Positions 3,438 to 12,931 of a stretch of 13,381 bases of DNA are shown here, piece after piece. How positions within the stretch are numbered: the stretch's first letter is position 1; the number at the start of each line of letters is the position of its first letter. The stretch is from Pirellulales bacterium. GTDB taxonomy: Bacteria; Planctomycetota; Planctomycetia; Pirellulales; JAICIG01. The stretch is taken from NCBI GenBank assembly GCA_025924495.1, contig JAICIG010000209.1, forward strand, positions 1 to 13,381. Reading direction: 5' to 3'. A model generated the notes under the pieces. It searched no databases. It was given only the letters and a program-made list of their open reading frames with translations, and was not told the origin of the DNA. The position numbers and the translations under genes are program-made.

Positions 3438-3466
3438 AGTATTTGGGCCTTTGCTGCAAATGTCAA
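3438..3466 (-). promoter_or_regulatory. candidate sigma-70 promoter for the 71-aa protein gene
   Basis: On the minus strand a perfect TTGACA (3466-3461) is followed after exactly 17 nt by AATACT (3443-3438), four of six matches to TATAAT. The -35 box overlaps the stop codon of mfnB (3465-3463). Transcription would begin near 3431, giving a leader of about 140 nt before the GTG at 3292. This would let the small protein be expressed apart from mfnB. The placement is inferred from consensus only. Confidence 0.45.
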
Positions 3467-4203
3467 GCAAATCGTGAAAGATCTGCTCTCAGCCGACCGC
3501 GCTGCCGAAGGTGTTCGGCCCATGCTCGCACAAGCTGTGCGTCGAGCGAGCCGCTTCTGCCGCCTCGGCATACGGCGCCGCGCACCGCAACGAAGTCGGG
3601 ATGGCAGGCAAGAACCTCAGCCAATTGCTGCCAACTCAAAGAACCAGCCAGTACGCAGAATGAATGACTGCGGCGAACCAACGCTGTAAATCGCCGTAAT
3701 TGCGACAACGGGAAATGGTCGAGCAAGCCGCCTTGCGATTTCTCATACGTATCGATTAGCACAGCGCCGCAGGCGGTGTCGATGGCGAATTCGAGAACCT
3801 CCTCAGGCCGCGGAGCAACCGCCTCGCCCCAATCGGCATAAACTACCGCAACAGGAGCGATGCCTGAAGGCAGAAGCTCGCGCCAGCGCAGCCAGCGGGC
3901 GCGCCACTCTGCCAAGCCGGCACAACCCGCGAGCCCCAACTTGGCATAGGCGACGTTCGCGGGGATATCGAATGCGGGTTTGCGCTCTTCGAGCAAACCG
4001 ACATCGAGGTCCCGCAATTCTCCGCATGCCAGGCTCAGTGGCGCACTGCGGTCGATCGCCGCCGCTATCTCAGCGACGGTTTGCGCGTCGACGGCGCCCA
4101 AGGAGCCGCGCGCGGGCTCTTTCAAGTCGATCAGATCGGCGCCGCCAAGAAGCGCATCTCGGGCCTCGGCGACCGAACGAACGCTGACGAGCAACCGCGT
4201 CAT
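3463..4203 (-). CDS. mfnB: (5-formylfuran-3-yl)methyl phosphate synthase, MfnB family
   Basis: This 246-residue protein matches the MfnB (DUF556) family. MfnB condenses two glyceraldehyde 3-phosphate molecules into 4-(hydroxymethyl)-2-furancarboxaldehyde phosphate, the first step to the furan ring of methanofuran. Bacteria with the tetrahydromethanopterin/methanofuran C1 pathway also carry it. Evidence: LLVSVRSVAEA at 4-14, GGADLIDLKEPARGSLG at 20-36 with Lys28, YAKLGLAG at 86-93 with Lys88, VVYADW at 120-125, LIDTYEKS at 149-156 with Asp151 and Lys155, and a C-terminal VRGAVCRGGRSGSLD phosphate-binding region at 207-221. These are a TIM-barrel Schiff-base lysine arrangement, and the length fits archaeal members (about 235). 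The frame is open to 4365, but ATG 4203 starts the conserved domain and overlaps the stop of the upstream gene as ATGA, which implies coupled translation. No other C1-pathway gene lies in the window. Confidence 0.88.
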   Translation of the reverse strand: MTRLLVSVRSVAEARDALLGGADLIDLKEPARGSLGAVDAQTVAEIAAAIDRSAPLSLACGELRDLDVGLLEERKPAFDIPANVAYAKLGLAGCAGLAEWRARWLRWRELLPSGIAPVAVVYADWGEAVAPRPEEVLEFAIDTACGAVLIDTYEKSQGGLLDHFPLSQLRRFTALVRRSHSFCVLAGSLSWQQLAEVLACHPDFVAVRGAVCRGGRSGSLDAQLVRAWAEHLRQRGRLRADLSRFA

Positions 4204-4751
4204 GAAGCAACCTGCGCATCGCGAAGTTGCCGTTTGACCTCGGCCAGCCGCGCGTTGAGCCGGTTGACTAGGTCTACCGACAGCGGCTCGCACCAGGCGC
4301 CGCGAATCGTAATGTAGTGCCCGCACCAATAACCAAGCGCCGGTTTGACGTCGACTTGCGCCCACTCCTCAGCGCGCTCGGCCAGGCGGACGACGACGGT
4401 CGAGGCTTGCATATCCGGGCGTCGTTTGCTTGGCAACAAACTCGGCCCTTGCCCCAGCAAGAAGCCTTCCACGACCTCGATGGGTACACGGATTGGCGCA
4501 GCCGAGCGCAAGTAGACGAGCATTTTGCCCGCCTCATAAGCCAATCGCGGCCGCCGTGTCTGCCAAGCCAGGTTGGCCAAAGCCGCAATGGAAATTAGCA
4601 AAATCGCTCCGCCAATCGCACGCGCCGTGCCGGACTCCGCCACGCGAAATTGCCCCGTGCAAACCGCCAGCGCGAAGCAGGCAAGGAGTGCCGGCAACAG
4701 AGCGCCGAACCAGAGCACGCGCCGATTGGCGCTCAACCAGACTTCAGCCAT
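4200..4751 (-). CDS. two-helix membrane protein with cytoplasmic C-terminal domain, coupled to mfnB (183 aa)
   Basis: I do not recognise a named family. Two hydrophobic segments (about 13-34 and 46-63) form a helical hairpin. After the basic stretch QTRRPR comes a soluble domain of about 115 residues with alternating beta-like strands (MLVYLRS, IRVPIEVVEGFLLGQG, STVVVRLAERAEEWAQVDV, YITIRGAWCEPLSVD) and a final amphipathic helix (LVNRLNARLAEVKRQL). A membrane hairpin followed by a small beta domain and one helix recalls bacterial PH-like membrane proteins; this is a guess from pattern. The first gene of a leftward unit, it ends in a 4-nt ATGA overlap with mfnB, so both are probably made together. 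The ATG at 4751 has no Shine-Dalgarno sequence and follows a perfect TATAAT by 11 nt. Confidence 0.78.
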   Translation of the reverse strand: MAEVWLSANRRVLWFGALLPALLACFALAVCTGQFRVAESGTARAIGGAILLISIAALANLAWQTRRPRLAYEAGKMLVYLRSAAPIRVPIEVVEGFLLGQGPSLLPSKRRPDMQASTVVVRLAERAEEWAQVDVKPALGYWCGHYITIRGAWCEPLSVDLVNRLNARLAEVKRQLRDAQVAS

Positions 4752-4961: not shown

Positions 4962-6569
4962 ATGTCCGAAACCCACGACGCATCAACTCCGCACAGTTCA
5001 AGTCGCCCCGTTCTTTTTGCGCTTATAACGGCTTTAGTCGCTTACGGCCTCGCCGCCGCAGCGCAGTTGCCGCAACGTGCGACCGACCGAATTCTGGCAG
5101 CACATAGCGATGCCGAACACGGCAGCAAATCGCACGCTGTTACTAGCGAGGAACACGCTGAGAACGAGGGGGCTGCAGCGGGAGCCAAGAAAGCGGACCC
5201 GCCGCCGGTCTGGATGGTCGCTCCCTTTGCCTTACTGCTGGCGGCCATTGCCCTGTTGCCGCTGATTCATGCCAGCGAACATTGGTGGGAGAACAATTTA
5301 CATAAATTCTACGTGGCGGCAGGCCTGGGCGCCGTAACGCTGCTTTATTACGGCCTGATGCATGCCGAGCCCATCCAGCGGCACTTTCTCGGGCATGCGG
5401 TGGTCGAGCACTCAGGCCAACCATTTGCCTGGGAGTTCTCCTGGACGATCTTCGCCAATGCCATCCTCCAGGACTATGTGCCATTTATCATCTTGTTGTT
5501 TAGTCTATATACGATTAGCGGCGGCATCCGCATCGAAGGGGATTTGCCGGCTCATCCTTTGACGAACACGGCATTCCTCGGAATTGGAGGCCTTTTAGCC
5601 AGTTTTGTCGGGACCACGGGCGCGGCCATGTTGCTGATCCGCCCGCTGTTGGAAACAAACAGCGAGCGCAAGCACGTCCGCCACACCGTCGTGTTCTTCA
5701 TTTTTGTCGTCTGCAATTGCGGCGGTTGCTTGCTGCCGCTAGGCGATCCGCCGCTTTTCTTAGGCTATTTGCAGGGAGTTGATTTCCTTTGGACGACAAA
5801 GCTCTGGAAAGAATGGCTGACGGTCAACGGCGCGCTGCTGGCGATTTACTACGCCTGGGACCAATTGTTTTGTTATCCGCGCGAGCAGCGCAGCGACCTC
5901 GCCCGAGATGAATCGCGCACGCGCCCGCTGCGATTCCTCGGCTTGTGGCCGAATGCCTTTTTATTGCTGGGGGTCGTGCTCTCGGTCGCTCTGCTAGATA
6001 CCAGCAAGACAATTCCAGGCACCGACTGGCATCCGTGGTTGTATCTGCGCGAGTGCGTGTTGCTGTCGCTGGTGGCGATCTCGCTCGGTTTGGGACAAGA
6101 TTCGGTGCGCCACGCCAATCGCTTCAATTACGGAGCGATCGTGGAAGTCGCCGCATTGTTCTTAGGCATCTTTATCTGCATGCAACCGGCGCTCCAGATC
6201 CTGGACGTCCGCGGTCCGAGTTTGGGCATCGACACGGCGCCGAAGTTTTTCTGGGTCACTGGAGCGCTGTCCTCCGTGCTCGATAATGCACCGACCTACC
6301 TGGTCTTTTTCGAGACAGCGCGAGCTCTGCATGCCGAGGGCTTCCAATCGATGCCGCACTTGGGCATTCCCGACCAGCTGCTTGCGGCGATCAGCCTGGG
6401 CGCGGTTTTCATGGGCGCTAATACCTACATTGGCAACGGTCCTAATTTCATGGTCAAGACGATTGCCGAAAAGTCGGGCGTGCGCATGCCGAGTTTCTTC
6501 GGCTATATGGCCTACAGCATTGGGATTTTGATTCCCTTGTTCGTGCTTGTGCATTTACTGTTTCTCTAG
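4962..6569 (+). CDS. multi-pass ion transporter, NhaD/CitMHS-type putative sodium:proton antiporter (535 aa)
   Basis: The protein has about 12-13 hydrophobic segments: one at 16-36, then, after a polar loop, segments from 83 to the C-terminus. It belongs to the ion transporter superfamily that includes NhaD, ArsB and CitMHS. Two inverted half-units each carry a broken-helix signature: GTTGAAMLLIRP at 217-228 with GGCLLPLGDPPLFLG at 254-268 in the first half, and SSVLDNAPTYLVFF at 437-450 with GANTYIGNGPNFMVK at 485-499 in the second. Asp441-Asn442 is the usual cation-binding pair of this group. The family is often annotated as a sodium:proton antiporter or putative citrate transporter; the sequence alone does not settle the substrate. 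A loop at 45-70 is rich in His (48, 53, 58, 65) and Glu. It heads a unit with rnd, 24 bp downstream. The ATG fits a leaderless start; no alternative is better. Confidence 0.87.
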   Translation: MSETHDASTPHSSSRPVLFALITALVAYGLAAAAQLPQRATDRILAAHSDAEHGSKSHAVTSEEHAENEGAAAGAKKADPPPVWMVAPFALLLAAIALLPLIHASEHWWENNLHKFYVAAGLGAVTLLYYGLMHAEPIQRHFLGHAVVEHSGQPFAWEFSWTIFANAILQDYVPFIILLFSLYTISGGIRIEGDLPAHPLTNTAFLGIGGLLASFVGTTGAAMLLIRPLLETNSERKHVRHTVVFFIFVVCNCGGCLLPLGDPPLFLGYLQGVDFLWTTKLWKEWLTVNGALLAIYYAWDQLFCYPREQRSDLARDESRTRPLRFLGLWPNAFLLLGVVLSVALLDTSKTIPGTDWHPWLYLRECVLLSLVAISLGLGQDSVRHANRFNYGAIVEVAALFLGIFICMQPALQILDVRGPSLGIDTAPKFFWVTGALSSVLDNAPTYLVFFETARALHAEGFQSMPHLGIPDQLLAAISLGAVFMGANTYIGNGPNFMVKTIAEKSGVRMPSFFGYMAYSIGILIPLFVLVHLLFL

Positions 6570-7810: not shown

Positions 7811-8608
7811 TCAGAACTTGCCGCGGCGACGTTCTTTGGCTGGCAGGATCTCCAGACAGGTCGTCCACCAGCCGTTGAGAATGGTCTCCTGAAACTCCAC
7901 AGGCAATCGCTCGGCCTGCATCTCGCGAGCCAGCCGACGATGATCGTACTCCACCGGGACGAATTCAACCTGCAAGCCGCCGCTCGGCGAGTATTCCACA
8001 AGCGCCACCCAGACCTTCGTCCGACCCTCAGTCTCCGGGCGGCCTAGCACGCCCACATTGACGAATTGGCGACCGCCGCGAAGGAAACGTTGCCAACGGA
8101 TGCCGGTGTGCGTCGCCAAAATCAAATCAGCCGAATTATCATCGGCCAGCTTGTCGAGGAAGTGCGTGGAACTGGTCGACTCCCACAAGAATTCGTTCGT
8201 CTTTCGCGGGCTGCCGTGACACATCAGCACGGCAAACGGCCCCAGCTCAATGCGTCGTTGCTTCGGCAGCGTACGCATCCAAGCGCGATTCTCCGCGGAA
8301 GTGTTGGTCAACGTGTAGTCGTAGCTGATCTGGGCGAAGTAGTTGTCTCGAGGATCCGTGTAGCCGCACTGACAATCGTCGAGCGAGTTGCCCACCGAAT
8401 CGTCGTAATTGCCCTGAATGCAAAGCACTCCTGCATCATGCAAGAGAGGAAAGACACGATCGGGATAAGGCCCGAAGGCCCCCAGGTCGCCAAGGCAATA
8501 AGTAGCATCCACACCCCGCCGGGCTGCCAGGCGCAGCGCCTCCTGCAACGCAAGATAATTGCTGTAGATACCGCCGAAGCAGGCGATCCGCGTAATTGGG
8601 GCAGTCAT
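7811..8608 (-). CDS. metallophosphoesterase-fold protein with degenerate metal site 1 (265 aa)
   Basis: The fold is that of YfcE/MJ0936-type calcineurin-like phosphoesterases, shown by motif order and spacing: RIACFGGIYSN (7-17) in place of RIAxISDIHGN, LGDLGAFGPYP (39-49), GNYDD (66-70) for GNHD, CHGSPR (130-135), ATHTG (165-169) for xGHTH, and FVNVGVLGRP for FVNPGSVGRP. Family knowledge: metal site 1 uses Asp and His of the first motif and the last His of GHTH. Here these are Gly13, Tyr15 and Gly169. The ligands of site 2 remain: Asp41, Asn67, His131, His167. The catalytic His of GNHD is Tyr68. An insert after GNYDD carries CQC (79-81) and many aromatics. The last gene of a three-gene unit, its ATG overlaps the radical SAM stop as ATGA. 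It converges on rnd with 29 bp between the stops and no clear terminator. It may bind one metal or act as a sensor or binding protein, not a standard two-metal phosphatase. Confidence 0.87.
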   Translation of the reverse strand: MTAPITRIACFGGIYSNYLALQEALRLAARRGVDATYCLGDLGAFGPYPDRVFPLLHDAGVLCIQGNYDDSVGNSLDDCQCGYTDPRDNYFAQISYDYTLTNTSAENRAWMRTLPKQRRIELGPFAVLMCHGSPRKTNEFLWESTSSTHFLDKLADDNSADLILATHTGIRWQRFLRGGRQFVNVGVLGRPETEGRTKVWVALVEYSPSGGLQVEFVPVEYDHRRLAREMQAERLPVEFQETILNGWWTTCLEILPAKERRRGKF

Positions 8609-9552
8609 TCAGTACGCTCGCCAACAGCCGCATTTTTAGCGATTGGGCTGCGTCCTAAGCGCAGCTCGGCGGCGCCGGCTGATGGGTTGGAACAGATGGC
8701 GCCGTACTGGTAGCACGTCGAGCAGGCGCCGTATTCGATCGCAAACGGACGCATGCTTTCGGCGAGCGAATCGCCCAGCCTCGATTGCGGCTCTTCAATT
8801 AAAATCGGGCACACGTGCACGCCGCGGTCGGTCACAATCCGGCTATGTTCGCAGACCAATTGCGAAGCGTCGAAGCCTTGCAGCATTTCGGCCGTAACGC
8901 GCTCTGCCGCATCGTAACCATGGGTTCGTTGTGCCTCGGCGCCAAGCCGTAGCGTCGGCAAAATCTTCAAACGGGGGCGTTCGTATCCAATACTGCGAAG
9001 CACACGCAAAAAACTCTCCACGACAGTCGCTTCTTCTGCGTCAGACCAGGTGCGTGCGGCGGTGATGATGGGGAGAAAGCCGTATTTGACCAATTTAGCA
9101 ACGCCTTCCATCGCCCGGGCAAACGTCCCCGCGCCGCGGATCGGATCATTCGTCTCCGGCGAAAACCCGTCGATCGAAACGCGGAACTCCAAGCTGTACA
9201 AGCTCTCGGCTTCGGCTTTCGCGAGGGGTCCGAGCCACTCGTCTTTGAGAATCGTGCCGTTCGTTAATACCGTCGCGGGGCCATAACGGAGCGTCTCGAC
9301 GAGGATCTCCGGCATTTGGCGATGCATGAAAGGCTCGCCGCCGGTGAAGTAATACTCCTTCACCCCTAACTCGACCGATTCTGTCAGGCGCCGACGGATT
9401 TGCTCGAACGAGAGATAGCCGAATGAGTCGTTCTTAGGACTGCAACTGATGAAGCAATGGTGGCACGTCAGATTGCAGAAGGCGCCGGACACCTGAAACC
9501 AGAGCTGATCAAGATGCGACAGCCGGACCTCGGGCGGTGATGCGGCGCTCAC
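8605..9552 (-). CDS. radical SAM enzyme with C-terminal cysteine-rich (SPASM/twitch-like) region (315 aa)
   Basis: Radical SAM enzymes cleave S-adenosylmethionine at a 4Fe-4S cluster to start radical chemistry. The cluster motif is CNLTCHHC (Cys26, Cys30, Cys33), directly followed by FISCSPKN with an extra Cys37. The SAM-binding TGGEPF is at 70-75. VLTNGT and the strand FRVSIDG further on complete the partial TIM barrel. The C-terminal part holds Cys234, Cys248, Cys277, Cys280 and Cys287 (spacing 13, 28, 2, 6), as expected for a shortened SPASM/twitch domain carrying an auxiliary Fe-S cluster. Such domains are common in peptide-modifying and cofactor-making members; no precursor peptide is seen nearby. 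The start is GTG 9552, overlapping the flavoprotein stop as GTGA, with AGGAAG upstream. Its own TGA overlaps the next ATG. The middle gene of a tightly coupled trio; the substrate is unknown. Confidence 0.9.
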   Translation of the reverse strand: MSAASPPEVRLSHLDQLWFQVSGAFCNLTCHHCFISCSPKNDSFGYLSFEQIRRRLTESVELGVKEYYFTGGEPFMHRQMPEILVETLRYGPATVLTNGTILKDEWLGPLAKAEAESLYSLEFRVSIDGFSPETNDPIRGAGTFARAMEGVAKLVKYGFLPIITAARTWSDAEEATVVESFLRVLRSIGYERPRLKILPTLRLGAEAQRTHGYDAAERVTAEMLQGFDASQLVCEHSRIVTDRGVHVCPILIEEPQSRLGDSLAESMRPFAIEYGACSTCYQYGAICSNPSAGAAELRLGRSPIAKNAAVGERTE

Positions 9553-10814
9553 GGGTGCAGCTTCCTGGCCGTGGCGTAAAGATTCAGATCGGCCCGATCT
9601 CCGATAATGGAAAACAATTCGCGAATCTGCTCATGGCCGACTGACAGGAGAAAGTGCGAGTTGCGGCCGTAGCTTTTGGCGCCAAGGATGTAAAAGTCGG
9701 GTTCGGGGTTCAACAGAGTATCGGCGCCCTGCCCCGTCTGATCAAGGCAATCGGTAGATGGCGTATTGGCCAACGCCGCTGCCAGCTTGATCGGTCCGCC
9801 GCTGACATAGCATTCGTGCACTTGCAGTTCTGCATAAAGGGAGTTGTCGGGCCGATAACCGACATTGGCAAGAATCCTGTCAACTTCAATCATGCCTGCG
9901 TGTCGTCCCGACAGCGTCACGCTAAACCGGTCTCCCCTCGTCTCGATGCGTTCCATACTCGTCCCCGACCAATGCGTCACTGGTCCTTCGCCCGCAGTCG
10001 CCAAAGCGTTGGCCGCTCGTGCCAGGCGATCTCGCTCGGGCAGTCGATCGTCAGCAATCAAAGGAATCGGTTCCGTCGAGTCGGCCCCTAAAACGCCGCG
10101 CGAAATCCAGGTCGCTTGGGTTCCAGGCGCCGAATTGGCGAGTTCGGCGAGCGCGAGCGCACTCGTGGCGGCGGAATATCCCGAACCAATCAGCAATGTA
10201 TGGCGCCCGGAATACTTCTCGCGTTCGCCGCCATGCAAGTCGGGCAAGCCGTACTCAATGCGCTCGACCGCGTCGAGTTCGCCCACGGCCGGAATCCCCG
10301 CCTGGCCGGCCCAATTGTGATTGCCGTAAGTGCCCGTGGCGTCAATGACGACGTCCGCCGTCGCCAGGCGTTCGATTCCTGCGCCATCGCGTACAAGAAT
10401 TCGAAACGGCGCGTCGATGCGAGCATCTTCCTCAACGACGTCGGTCTTCAGCAGCCCTTCGCGCCCAACGGCCAGCACCTTGACGCCCAGATGCAAGTGA
10501 TCGACGAGTAAGTCGGAGTTGGCGAGCGGTATGAAGTACGCTTCGGCCAAGTCGCGAGCCGACAGCACCGCGTCGTCATCGCGCGGGCGCCACGAATCAT
10601 CTTGAGCCGACAAAGCGGCGAGACCGAGCGGCGAAACATTCATTCGCCAGGGCGTGAACAGCCGCACATGGCCCCAGCGCAGCAAATTTTCGACGGCGCG
10701 GCCCTGCTCATAAAGATCGACGTCGTACCCTAGATAACGGGCATAGAGCGCAGTCTCCAAGCCGATCGGGCCGGCGCCGAGAATGGCGATTCGCGCGGGG
10801 GTATCAACGGCCAT
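9549..10814 (-). CDS. FAD-dependent oxidoreductase, two-dinucleotide-fold flavoprotein (421 aa)
   Basis: The N-terminus (8-38) is a classic FAD-binding Rossmann unit: ILGAGPIGLE with GxGxxG at 13-18 and acidic Glu36 at the end of the second strand (DLYEQG). VVIDATGTYGN at 155-165 is the second FAD-contact motif. HTLLIGSGYSAATSA at 205-219 starts the second, NAD(P)-binding fold. The C-terminal DFYILGAKSYGRNSHFLLS at 373-391 is where the flavin ring is usually contacted. There is no CxxC redox pair, so it is not thioredoxin-reductase-like, and no clear FMO fingerprint. It is thus a monooxygenase- or dehydrogenase-like flavoenzyme of unknown substrate. The first gene of the trio, it ends by GTGA overlap with the radical SAM gene. 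The ATG at 10814 has no good Shine-Dalgarno sequence but begins the fold at the right distance. A 154-bp spacer with a hairpin separates it from the membrane protein gene upstream. Confidence 0.88.
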   Translation of the reverse strand: MAVDTPARIAILGAGPIGLETALYARYLGYDVDLYEQGRAVENLLRWGHVRLFTPWRMNVSPLGLAALSAQDDSWRPRDDDAVLSARDLAEAYFIPLANSDLLVDHLHLGVKVLAVGREGLLKTDVVEEDARIDAPFRILVRDGAGIERLATADVVIDATGTYGNHNWAGQAGIPAVGELDAVERIEYGLPDLHGGEREKYSGRHTLLIGSGYSAATSALALAELANSAPGTQATWISRGVLGADSTEPIPLIADDRLPERDRLARAANALATAGEGPVTHWSGTSMERIETRGDRFSVTLSGRHAGMIEVDRILANVGYRPDNSLYAELQVHECYVSGGPIKLAAALANTPSTDCLDQTGQGADTLLNPEPDFYILGAKSYGRNSHFLLSVGHEQIRELFSIIGDRADLNLYATARKLHP

Positions 10815-10968: not shown

Positions 10969-11616
10969 TCAGCGGCGAACGGCGGCGGTTGGAGCAGCGG
11001 CAGCCCCGGCGGACTCGACCGACGCGGGTTCGGCCTGAATGCCACTGATCTCCGGCGCTTTAAAGCCGAGCAGATACGACACCGTTAGCAGGGCCACGAC
11101 GGGCCGGAACCAACGGGCCAACCGCCCTTGCGGACGGCGCCAAGCCAAGCTCAGCATGGCCGCCAACGGCACAAAGAACAGGAATGGCACCGATCTGCGC
11201 CAGATGTCGTGATCGCTGGCATAGGCCCCGCCCAATGCATTCCAGAACATGCACAGAAGCCAGTACGAGCAGATCAATAGCCAGAACCAGCCTTCGCGCT
11301 CGCGCAATGACCGAGCAGCGCCGCCGGAGCCCGCGGCGAGCGCCTGCACACCGAGCAGATTGCCATTCGGGCTTAGCATGAGTATGCCCGAGGAGAGCAG
11401 GACGAAGTTGAGCAGATCCGCCAGCTTCATGGAAATCGTATAAGCCAGCTTCTTTTCTTCGATGCAGTGCGAGGTATACAGAATATCGTTGCAAATCAGC
11501 AGCGTCAGGACGGCGCTCATCCAGAAGCGATCTCGATCGCGGTCAAAGAAGGCCTGCAGCACCTCGCGCAGGGCCGCCAAGAACAGGATGCCGAAAATGA
11601 TATTATAAAAGGTCAT
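10969..11616 (-). CDS. hypothetical multi-pass membrane protein (215 aa)
   Basis: I do not recognise the family. The frame is open to 11706, but ATG 11616 has GAGGG about eight bases upstream and begins MTFYNIIFGILFLAALREVLQ, the first membrane helix. About six hydrophobic segments follow: near 3-20, 30-50, 58-78, 108-128, 138-157 and 165-183, with charged loops between (DRDRDRFW, HCIEEKKLAY, RRPQGRLARW). The C-terminal tail (about 185-215) is Ala/Pro-rich and probably disordered. Polar residues inside helices (CNDILYTSH, MKLADLLN) suggest more than a plain anchor. It sits between the class V enzyme and the flavoprotein, all read leftward, with about 155 bp of spacer on either side. A candidate promoter and a leader hairpin lie upstream. 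Whether it belongs functionally to the downstream trio is not shown. Confidence 0.8.
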   Translation of the reverse strand: MTFYNIIFGILFLAALREVLQAFFDRDRDRFWMSAVLTLLICNDILYTSHCIEEKKLAYTISMKLADLLNFVLLSSGILMLSPNGNLLGVQALAAGSGGAARSLREREGWFWLLICSYWLLCMFWNALGGAYASDHDIWRRSVPFLFFVPLAAMLSLAWRRPQGRLARWFRPVVALLTVSYLLGFKAPEISGIQAEPASVESAGAAAAPTAAVRR

Positions 11617-11647
11617 CGACGGTCCCTCGCCACGACCCGACGCAGCC

Positions 11648-11685
11648 GACCGCGCTATCTGCAGCGGTCTGAGGGCAAAAGTATA
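11648..11685 (-). promoter_or_regulatory. candidate -10 box and leader hairpin before the multi-pass membrane protein gene
   Basis: TATACT (11685-11680, minus strand) matches the -10 consensus at five of six bases; a TTGACG exists upstream but at 23 nt, too far. Transcription would start near 11673. Just after it comes an inverted repeat GACCGC...GCGGTC (11669-11664 and 11653-11648), extended inward by GC/GC with one bulged base. GGGACC next to the ribosome-binding site could pair with GGTC of the second arm, a possible switch; this is speculative. Confidence 0.35.
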
Positions 11686-11773
11686 GAACTTGCAGCCGAC
11701 AGACACTACGTCAATCCGTCGCCAAAAAACCGCCGAATTTGCGACTCTTTGGGCGATCTGTGCTCGCCGGAGG

Positions 11774-12931
11774 CTATTCCGCCGATGATAGAGCTGCGAT
11801 CAGGCGATCGATATCTGCGGGGTTTGCGTAGGCATGGGGGCTGACGCGTAAGCGTCCTGCACGGCAACTGAGTAGCACGCGGCGTTCGAGGCAATGTTTC
11901 CGCACCGCCGCCGGATTGCGGCCCGGCAATTCGAACGAAACAATCCCGCTGGCATGATTGCCTTCGCGGCAACTGGCGACAACCGCCCCCAGCCGCAATA
12001 ACCGCTCGCAGATCGCCTCGGTAATTGCCAGAATTCGCTCCGCAATCTGCTCCGTCGAGAATGACGCCAGCAGTTCGAGGCTGGCGCCGAGGGCCAACAA
12101 GCCCGGCATGTTGTACGTCCCGCCTTCATAACGCGCGGCAGTTGGCTTCAGCTTGAGCTCGATTTTCTGGAAGTCGTAAGACTGGACAACGCTGTTCCAA
12201 CCGATGCCCATCGGTCGCAACAACTCCAGATGCTCCTGCCTCGTGTAGAACAGGCCCGCTCCTTCGGGGCCGAGCAGCCATTTGTGTCCGTCGGCCGCTA
12301 GAAAATCGACCGGATTCTTTCGCACGTCGAGCGGAAACACGCCCAGGCCCTGAATGGCATCCAAAAACAGCAGGGCTCCGCGCGAATGCGCCAGTTCCGC
12401 CAGAGCGTCGAGATCGTTGCGCCAGCCACTGGCATAGCCAACCCAACTGATAGCAACGATTCGCGTGCGTCGATCGCAGGCAGCAGAAACCTTGCCAAGA
12501 TCGATGCGCCCTTGCTCGACAGGCACGCGCCGCGTCTCGACGCCCCGGCTGGCCAGGTTCAGCCAAGGATATAGGTTCGATGGAAATTCATCGGCAGGTA
12601 CGACCACATTATCGCCCGGCTGCCACGGAAAGCCTTCGGCCACCAGGTTGATCCCCTCGGTCGTATTGCGGATCAGCGCAAGCTCATCCACGCCCGCGGA
12701 GATCAGCTTGGCGCCGCGCAAACGCACATGTTCTAATCGCGCGGCCCATTGCGGCCAATTAGCGCATCCATTCTCGGCCAGGTCCTTGGCCCACTCGCAA
12801 AACACCGCCTGAGCGGGGGCTGAAATCGGCGCCACCGCGGCATGATCGAAATAGGCCCACTGATCGGCGCAAGGCATCATCCGCCGCAGTTCGAGCCATC
12901 TTTCGCTGGGATCTTCAAGCTCGACGTTCAT
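11774..12931 (-). CDS. class V aminotransferase-family PLP enzyme (385 aa)
   Basis: This is a fold-type I PLP enzyme of the aminotransferase class V / cysteine desulfurase-like superfamily. YFDHAAVAP at 27-35 is the N-terminal substrate motif. RNTTEGIN at 88-95 binds the PLP phosphate. LFLDAIQGLG at 188-197 gives Asp191 and Gln194 for the pyridine ring. ADGHKWLLGPEG at 213-224 gives Schiff-base Lys217. LRVSPHAY at 361-368 supplies a carboxylate-binding Arg362. The mobile loop with catalytic Cys in SufS/IscS (GHHC-like) is absent; the equivalent region reads VLLSCRAG with Cys356. A desulfurase or selenocysteine lyase label would therefore be unsafe; an aminotransferase, epimerase or lyase is as likely. 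The ATG at 12931 has no Shine-Dalgarno sequence and a large inverted repeat ends five bases before it. The nitrilase-type gene ends 81 bp upstream on the same strand. Confidence 0.88.
   Translation of the reverse strand: MNVELEDPSERWLELRRMMPCADQWAYFDHAAVAPISAPAQAVFCEWAKDLAENGCANWPQWAARLEHVRLRGAKLISAGVDELALIRNTTEGINLVAEGFPWQPGDNVVVPADEFPSNLYPWLNLASRGVETRRVPVEQGRIDLGKVSAACDRRTRIVAISWVGYASGWRNDLDALAELAHSRGALLFLDAIQGLGVFPLDVRKNPVDFLAADGHKWLLGPEGAGLFYTRQEHLELLRPMGIGWNSVVQSYDFQKIELKLKPTAARYEGGTYNMPGLLALGASLELLASFSTEQIAERILAITEAICERLLRLGAVVASCREGNHASGIVSFELPGRNPAAVRKHCLERRVLLSCRAGRLRVSPHAYANPADIDRLIAALSSAE

Follow-up and report, generated by a model that had tools for sequence, protein, structure and literature searches.

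A flavoprotein, a radical SAM protein and a one-metal phosphoesterase-fold protein as the probable core of an ArsS-independent organoarsenical pathway

Three overlapping genes on the minus strand of a 13,381-nucleotide contig from a Pirellulales bacterium (GenBank assembly GCA_025924495.1, contig JAICIG010000209.1; the whole stretch is referred to here as the window) probably form the core of a pathway that makes organoarsenicals—most likely arsenosugar-like compounds—independently of the radical S-adenosylmethionine (SAM) enzyme ArsS, a reading to which we give a probability of about two in three. The trio comprises a 421-residue flavoprotein dependent on flavin adenine dinucleotide and nicotinamide adenine dinucleotide (phosphate) (FAD/NAD(P)), encoded first at 9549..10814; a 315-residue radical SAM protein (PF04055) at 8605..9552; and a 265-residue calcineurin-like phosphoesterase-fold protein at 7811..8608. 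Relatives of these genes bring with them ArsM-like methyltransferases and TIGR04282/TIGR04283 glycosyltransferases, which point to arsenic as the substrate. The original prediction, made from this DNA alone, had proposed an undescribed oxidative or radical modification pathway for which no substrate could be named; radical-based modification with a repurposed phosphoesterase fold is still the likely class of reaction, but the substrate need no longer go unnamed.

When each of the three proteins is searched for in 148 genomes from the Planctomycetota, the phylum of Adhaeretor mobilis, its orthologue-strength matches single out an identical set of ten, at cut-offs chosen after the gaps in the score lists had been viewed. 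Among these ten, the flavoprotein gene lies far from the other two in G003, G025, and G106, and the phosphoesterase gene lies far away in G001; because the same ten genomes hold all three genes even where one is unlinked, the co-occurrence is more than hitch-hiking, and the proposal that the three are partners is borne out. Outside the ten, the next-best radical SAM match is in G063 (9.9e-98, 50% identity), a genome with a phosphoesterase match of only 4.2e-12 and no flavoprotein match. The next-best phosphoesterase match outside the ten is 2.5e-19, and the next-best flavoprotein matches are in G135 (3.8e-76) and G114 (5.5e-61). At the thresholds used, G135 has no radical SAM or phosphoesterase match; in this ArsS genome, a 42% flavoprotein relative lies two genes from a gene that appears by eye to be ThiO-like (L087:2251-6031). 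The radical SAM gene itself occurs in many Planctomycetota as well as in bins labelled Acidobacteria, Gemmatimonadetes, Gammaproteobacteria, and Latescibacterota, although such bins can be mixed.

Gene order was compared in 80 related loci, which hold the highest-ranking 80 of the 146 radical SAM relatives found in one genome-contig scan in which many contigs end early; the counts of spacing and overlap cover these loci without the window itself. A phosphoesterase gene lies at most 600 nucleotides downstream of the radical SAM gene in 51/80 loci and a flavoprotein gene at most 600 nucleotides upstream in 53/80, so the homologues are not usually unlinked, an outcome that had been named beforehand as one that would speak against a shared pathway. 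Within the fetched flanks, and with the window included, the phosphoesterase is present in 55/81, the flavoprotein in 54/81, and both in 36/81. Eight loci (L068, L071, L072, L074, L076, L078, L079, and L080), all labelled Gemmatimonadetes or Gammaproteobacteria, carry the radical SAM/phosphoesterase pair with no flavoprotein gene in the fetched flanks.

Fusions point to arsenic. In G131, G073, and G086 (fusions designated fusA), relatives of the radical SAM protein, with 40%–46% identity across roughly 290 residues, carry an ArsM-like domain in the same polypeptide; the two such methyltransferase domains that were scanned reach 238–242 bits with NF008823, an arsenite methyltransferase model, just below its cut-off of 263. 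All 14 aligned ArsM-like sequences possess an N-terminal Cys-Cys pair, a YGC motif, a cysteine before a GA motif, and an additional domain at the C terminus, and 13 of the 14 have an SNC motif (SDC in L102); we take certain of these cysteines to be those that bind arsenic. The gene that follows the fusion in G131 matches TIGR04283, 'arsenosugar biosynthesis glycosyltransferase', at 239 bits (cut-off 182), and in G023 an ArsM-like gene adjoins the gene for a radical SAM relative with 33% identity. A second set of fusions, fusB (G146, G092, G136, G074, G091, G027, and G237), contains a clearly different radical SAM domain and was rejected as part of the same radical SAM family; since trees place it apart, only the three fusA fusions count directly. 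One fusB genome, G027, has a compact cluster of a TIGR04283 glycosyltransferase, the radical SAM–ArsM fusion, and a TIGR04282 glycosyltransferase (L157:1898-5990). As the radical SAM domain of G027 comes from a different family, there may be another ArsS-independent system besides the trio.

Unfused neighbours point in the same direction. An ArsM gene lies directly beside the radical SAM and phosphoesterase genes in three phyla (G009, Planctomycetota; L061, Acidobacteria; G269, Gemmatimonadota), and in L026 it lies about 2 kb from them on the opposite strand with one gene between. The most complete linkage is found in G009, where the flavoprotein, radical SAM, phosphoesterase, and ArsM genes lie on one strand together with those for a MIP channel (PF00230, 177.7 bits), a transglutaminase-like protein, and a TIGR04283 glycosyltransferase (229.6 bits, cut-off 182); the G009 genome has no ArsS match. 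No MIP channel of this kind was found in the other 181 sequences compared. G269 has the radical SAM gene and the ArsM domain in duplicate, with one pair adjacent (L120, L159). In the trio genome G033, ArsM is followed by a TIGR04283 glycosyltransferase, and TIGR04282-like genes occur in 19/80 related loci (the example in L008 was verified at 181 bits, cut-off 134). ArsS genomes such as L175 have both glycosyltransferase domains fused directly downstream of ArsS. Two other candidates were set aside: an ArsS-like match in L070 proved to be the radical SAM gene of the trio itself, and a glycosyltransferase match in L039 was partial (97 residues) and was not used.

In L003 (7461-8567) and about 20 further planctomycete loci, a gene for a ThiO-family glycine oxidase lies upstream of the flavoprotein gene, often with TIGR04282 and glutaredoxin genes. 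The ThiO-type oxidase, the glutaredoxin, and a Ser/Thr kinase, with upstream counts ranging from 8 to 22 among the 80 loci, were considered as pathway genes and are now regarded as probable synteny, with TIGR04282 excepted.

The link to ArsM extends to whole genomes. The 276 genomes of Adhaeretor's order were searched for the radical SAM gene (by which alone 'trio' was scored in this set), for ArsS (TIGR04167), and for the C-terminal domain of arsenosugar-type ArsM (alignment A4). Of these genomes, 41 had the radical SAM gene and 47 had ArsS; the ArsM domain was present in 61 at E ≤ 1e-10 and in 74 at E ≤ 1e-4. At the stricter threshold, the domain occurred in 34/46 genomes with ArsS only, 22/40 with the trio only, and 4/189 with neither (Fisher tests, 2.0e-26 for ArsS and 4.6e-16 for trio-positive versus trio-negative genomes without ArsS); at the looser threshold, these figures were 37/46, 24/40, and 12/189. 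In the phylum sample of 148, genomes without ArsS had the ArsM domain in 8/9 cases with the trio and 15/84 without it (P = 3.7e-5). In nine of these 15 trio-less genomes, a radical SAM gene is fused to ArsM or adjoins it (three fusA, one adjacent, and five fusB), a tenth (G027) has a fusB fusion, and one more (G063) holds the 50% radical SAM relative at another place in its genome. Among the trio genomes, that of the cultured strain Thalassoglobus neptunius KOR42 (G003, locus L033) has the ArsM domain and no ArsS match.

Trio and ArsS are themselves nearly exclusive: they occur together in one genome of the order against 7.0 expected (P = 0.0027) and again in one genome of the phylum sample (P = 0.06). 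This bears on the proposal that the trio serves arsenic detoxification or repair, with the flavoprotein and the phosphoesterase-fold protein holding the redox state of arsenicals or carrying them and the radical SAM enzyme degrading or demethylating them. Near-exclusion with the biosynthetic ArsS suits biosynthesis better, as does the presence of TIGR04283 and TIGR04282 glycosyltransferases beside the trio, ArsM, or the fused genes, and detoxification is therefore considered unlikely.

Across the two samples, Adhaeretor mobilis (G001) alone has both systems, and its genome contains two ArsM genes. In a tree of 71 ArsM rows, one of these (L109) falls in a 22-row group comprising 18 rows from trio genomes, three from genomes with neither system, and one from the genome with both (support 94/74). 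The other (L110), which lies beside ArsS, falls in a 23-row group comprising 16 ArsS, five trio, one with neither, and one with both (support 91/89). Because Adhaeretor carries both systems, each with its own type of ArsM, two different products would fit. It is thus conceivable, if rather less than an even bet, that the trio makes an organoarsenical class of its own unlike the products of ArsS, by means of a new radical SAM former of carbon–arsenic bonds, a one-metal handler of arsenicals, and a redox flavoprotein. In G319, scored as trio-positive and ArsS-negative, a 98-residue ArsS-like piece with 50% identity to Adhaeretor ArsS lies beside ArsM (L123:5594-7096) and is perhaps the relic of an ArsS that was replaced.

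Several observations weigh against an arsenic pathway, and some of them favour a different explanation: that trio and ArsM go together only through shared ancestry, with the trio modifying some other small molecule or cofactor and ArsM being no more than a frequent gene in those lineages. ArsM lies near the trio in only 2/80 related loci, 28 of 30 fetched ArsM regions from trio genomes contain no trio gene, and the recurring neighbours of ArsM there are housekeeping-like. Of the 41 genomes of the order with the radical SAM gene, 16 lack this ArsM domain even at E ≤ 1e-4 (one of them, G096, has an ordinary ArsM), and among 121 Gemmatimonadota genomes no association is seen (radical SAM gene in 27, ArsM domain in eight, both in two). 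The P values given above are overstated because genomes within one order share ancestry and are not independent. In addition, the five fusB cases among the nine fused or adjacent ones represent a different radical SAM family, and the ArsM sequences of trio and ArsS genomes are not cleanly split, with five trio rows in the ArsS-side group and a trio-side branch that is not firm (94/74). The 'arsenosugar glycosyltransferase' names are labels from NCBI annotation and not experimental results, and the window contains no relative of ArsM, TIGR04282, or TIGR04283. Against shared ancestry stand the contrast of 22/40 and 4/189 within a single order, the position of ArsM beside the radical SAM and phosphoesterase genes in three phyla, and the ArsM fusions inside the same radical SAM family; this explanation is judged improbable, though slightly less so than detoxification.

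A third alternative is a radical SAM system that modifies a ribosomally synthesised and post-translationally modified peptide (RiPP), the precursor of which is unlinked or unannotated. Matches of the radical SAM protein below the NCBIfam cut-offs do include several SPASM peptide maturases; however, intergenic gaps are mostly short, and no recurring precursor-like family was found beside the radical SAM gene in the 80 loci, among which open reading frames (ORFs) under 70–80 residues were not clustered. The RiPP explanation is accordingly held to be very improbable.

The sequence comparisons show the gene set and its shared distribution, its ties to ArsM and glycosyltransferase genes, its near-exclusion with ArsS, and the disappearance of the metal-site-1 ligands; from these we infer that arsenic is the element concerned, and likewise what each protein acts on and which reaction it carries out. 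In the preferred organoarsenical pathway, trivalent arsenic would first be methylated by an arsenosugar-type ArsM, the gene for which usually lies at another site in the genome. The radical SAM protein may then add a further carbon–arsenic bond to the methylated arsenical, by analogy with the adenosyl transfer that ArsS carries out elsewhere. The phosphoesterase-fold protein, which retains a single metal site and has a CxC motif in every sequence, is predicted from its residues and fold to bind or process that arsenical and no phosphoester. Residues and fold likewise suggest that the flavoprotein, with its two invariant cysteines, sets the oxidation state of arsenic, and the TIGR04282/TIGR04283 glycosyltransferases would complete the product.

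Two radical SAM enzymes are described as makers of carbon–arsenic bonds: ArsS, which adenosylates arsenic in oxo-arsenosugar biosynthesis (PMC12159101), and ArsL, which transfers a 3-amino-3-carboxypropyl group to arsenic in arsinothricin biosynthesis (PMC12159101, PMC8552651); the available text of PMC12159101 names only these two. The trio resembles the ArsM–ArsS system in that its radical SAM protein would, judging from related genomes, be used with an arsenosugar-type ArsM and with TIGR04282/TIGR04283 glycosyltransferases, but the tree separates this protein from ArsS, and its gene is accompanied by those for a flavoprotein and a phosphoesterase-fold protein. The arsinothricin operon arsQML, as presented in the accessible part of PMC8552651, likewise pairs a radical SAM enzyme with ArsM but has a permease and no flavoprotein or phosphoesterase. 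Three ArsM proteins of trio genomes (L100, L026, and L109) match NF040538 (arsinothricin ArsM) best, at 340–359 bits, below the cut-off of 500, and L102 matches NF008823 best, at 186 against a cut-off of 263. Searches of the open-access literature on arsenosugar and organoarsenical biosynthesis and on radical SAM enzymes gave no title or abstract opening that describes the trio, although publication elsewhere is possible; nor did they give a paper that assigns the trio to a characterised pathway, an outcome that had been named beforehand as one that would refute the original proposal.

The radical SAM protein belongs to its superfamily by its PF04055 match (76.5 bits, cut-off 29.5) and by a CX3CX2C cluster motif, which lies with an additional cysteine, Cys37, in the segment CNLTCHHCFISC (9442..9477, minus strand). 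C30, C33, and C37 are present in 81/81 sequences and C26 in 80/81, the remaining sequence having an X at this position. Further towards the C terminus, a cysteine set (C234-x13-C248 and C277-xx-C280-x6-C287; 8692..8853, minus strand), each member conserved in 81/81, is a candidate for binding an auxiliary Fe–S cluster, and no Pfam SPASM match was found in this protein. None of the best 25 of 51 NCBIfam matches exceeds its cut-off. The highest of these is to the Rv1681 family radical SAM protein (NF049973), at 101 bits against a cut-off of 380; the score against ArsS (TIGR04167) is 45.4 bits against a cut-off of 300, placing the protein outside that family. No ArsL model appears among the best 25 of the 51 families, and no direct comparison with ArsL was made.

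The phosphoesterase-fold protein passes the Pfam cut-off for the calcineurin-like metallophosphoesterase fold and has no NCBIfam match at all. Across 54/54 sequences, the two-metal ligand set (D, H, D, N, H, H, H) is incomplete: all site-1 ligands are absent and all site-2 ligands are present, in roles that we take to be those of the canonical metal ligands. Its earlier description as a degenerate phosphoesterase holds in all of these sequences. All of the motifs lie on the minus strand. Motif I, canonically DxHGN, has become GGIYSN (8558..8575), with both metal-1 ligands gone and G13 and Y15 invariant in 54/54. Motif II, GDLG (8480..8491), retains D41 in 54/54; motif III, GNYDD (8399..8413), retains N67, with Tyr68 in place of the canonical histidine, in 54/54; and motif IV, CHG (8213..8221), retains H131 in 54/54. 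Motif V, THTG (8102..8113; canonical GHxH), keeps the first histidine, and the second is replaced by Gly169 (H167 and G169 in 54/54). An invariant CxC (C79 and C81; 8366..8374; 54/54) lies in a low-confidence loop spanning residues 70–85. Motif I aligns to SDIHGN of SapH; compared with this asymmetric diadenosine tetraphosphate (Ap4A) hydrolase (SapH/Spr1479, 3qfm), the trio protein has lost the metal-site-1 D, H, and H and possesses the CxC, in both respects invariantly (54/54).

The flavoprotein matches PF07992 at 46.3 bits (cut-off 26.1) and contains the two dinucleotide-binding motifs of a two-dinucleotide-binding flavoprotein, both on the minus strand: GAGPIG at residues 13–18 (10761..10778; G13 and G15 in 52/53, G18 in 50/53) and GSGYSAAT at residues 210–217 (10164..10187; G210 and G212 in 53/53). 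None of its 13 NCBIfam matches exceeds the cut-off. It matches the folds of both flavin monooxygenases and disulfide reductases, matches that were taken as evidence of fold only, and among those listed, YpdA/Bdr and the class B flavin monooxygenases (SidA, PvdA, FMO) share 12%–20% identity with it. The flavoprotein differs from all of these in an insert at residues 333–361, predicted with low confidence (predicted local distance difference test score, pLDDT, under 50), which carries two invariant cysteines, Cys335 (9810..9812, minus strand) and Cys356 (9747..9749, minus strand), each present in 53/53 sequences.

Within the window, the three-gene cassette is as first described, with its ORFs present and a 4-nucleotide stop/start overlap at each junction on the minus strand: GTGA (9549..9552) joins the flavoprotein stop to the radical SAM start, and ATGA (8605..8608) joins the radical SAM stop to the phosphoesterase start. 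The translational coupling claimed from these overlaps has both of its overlaps here, and close packing is common in relatives, but the 4-nucleotide overlap is not. Such an overlap is possible in just 12/51 close radical SAM/phosphoesterase pairs and 20/53 close flavoprotein/radical SAM pairs, and coupling is therefore only an occasional form of a common close packing, with gene order conserved and the overlap less so. In the gene calls for the related loci, a greedy choice of ORF made some gene starts too long.

By its homologues the window is of planctomycete type, and its remainder contains other genes. Upstream on the trio's strand (10969-12931) are genes for a 245-residue protein that has no Pfam match and for a class V aminotransferase resembling SufS/CsdA; the first has no relative in the 80 related loci and the second has one (L041). 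A CitMHS_2 transporter (PF16980, 492.6 bits; 4962-6569) lies two genes from the trio on the opposite strand. Positions 3463-4365 encode an MfnB-type 4-(hydroxymethyl)-2-furancarboxaldehyde-phosphate (4-HFC-P) synthase (PF04476, 181.8 bits), which belongs to methanofuran synthesis and is here encoded on a bacterial contig.

Should this assignment be correct, the trio would add a third radical SAM family to those that make carbon–arsenic bonds, thereby widening the known range of organoarsenical producers in nature, and would supply a marker gene for organoarsenical production in metagenomes. It would also offer a case of a phosphoesterase fold that has apparently abandoned reactions on phosphoesters.

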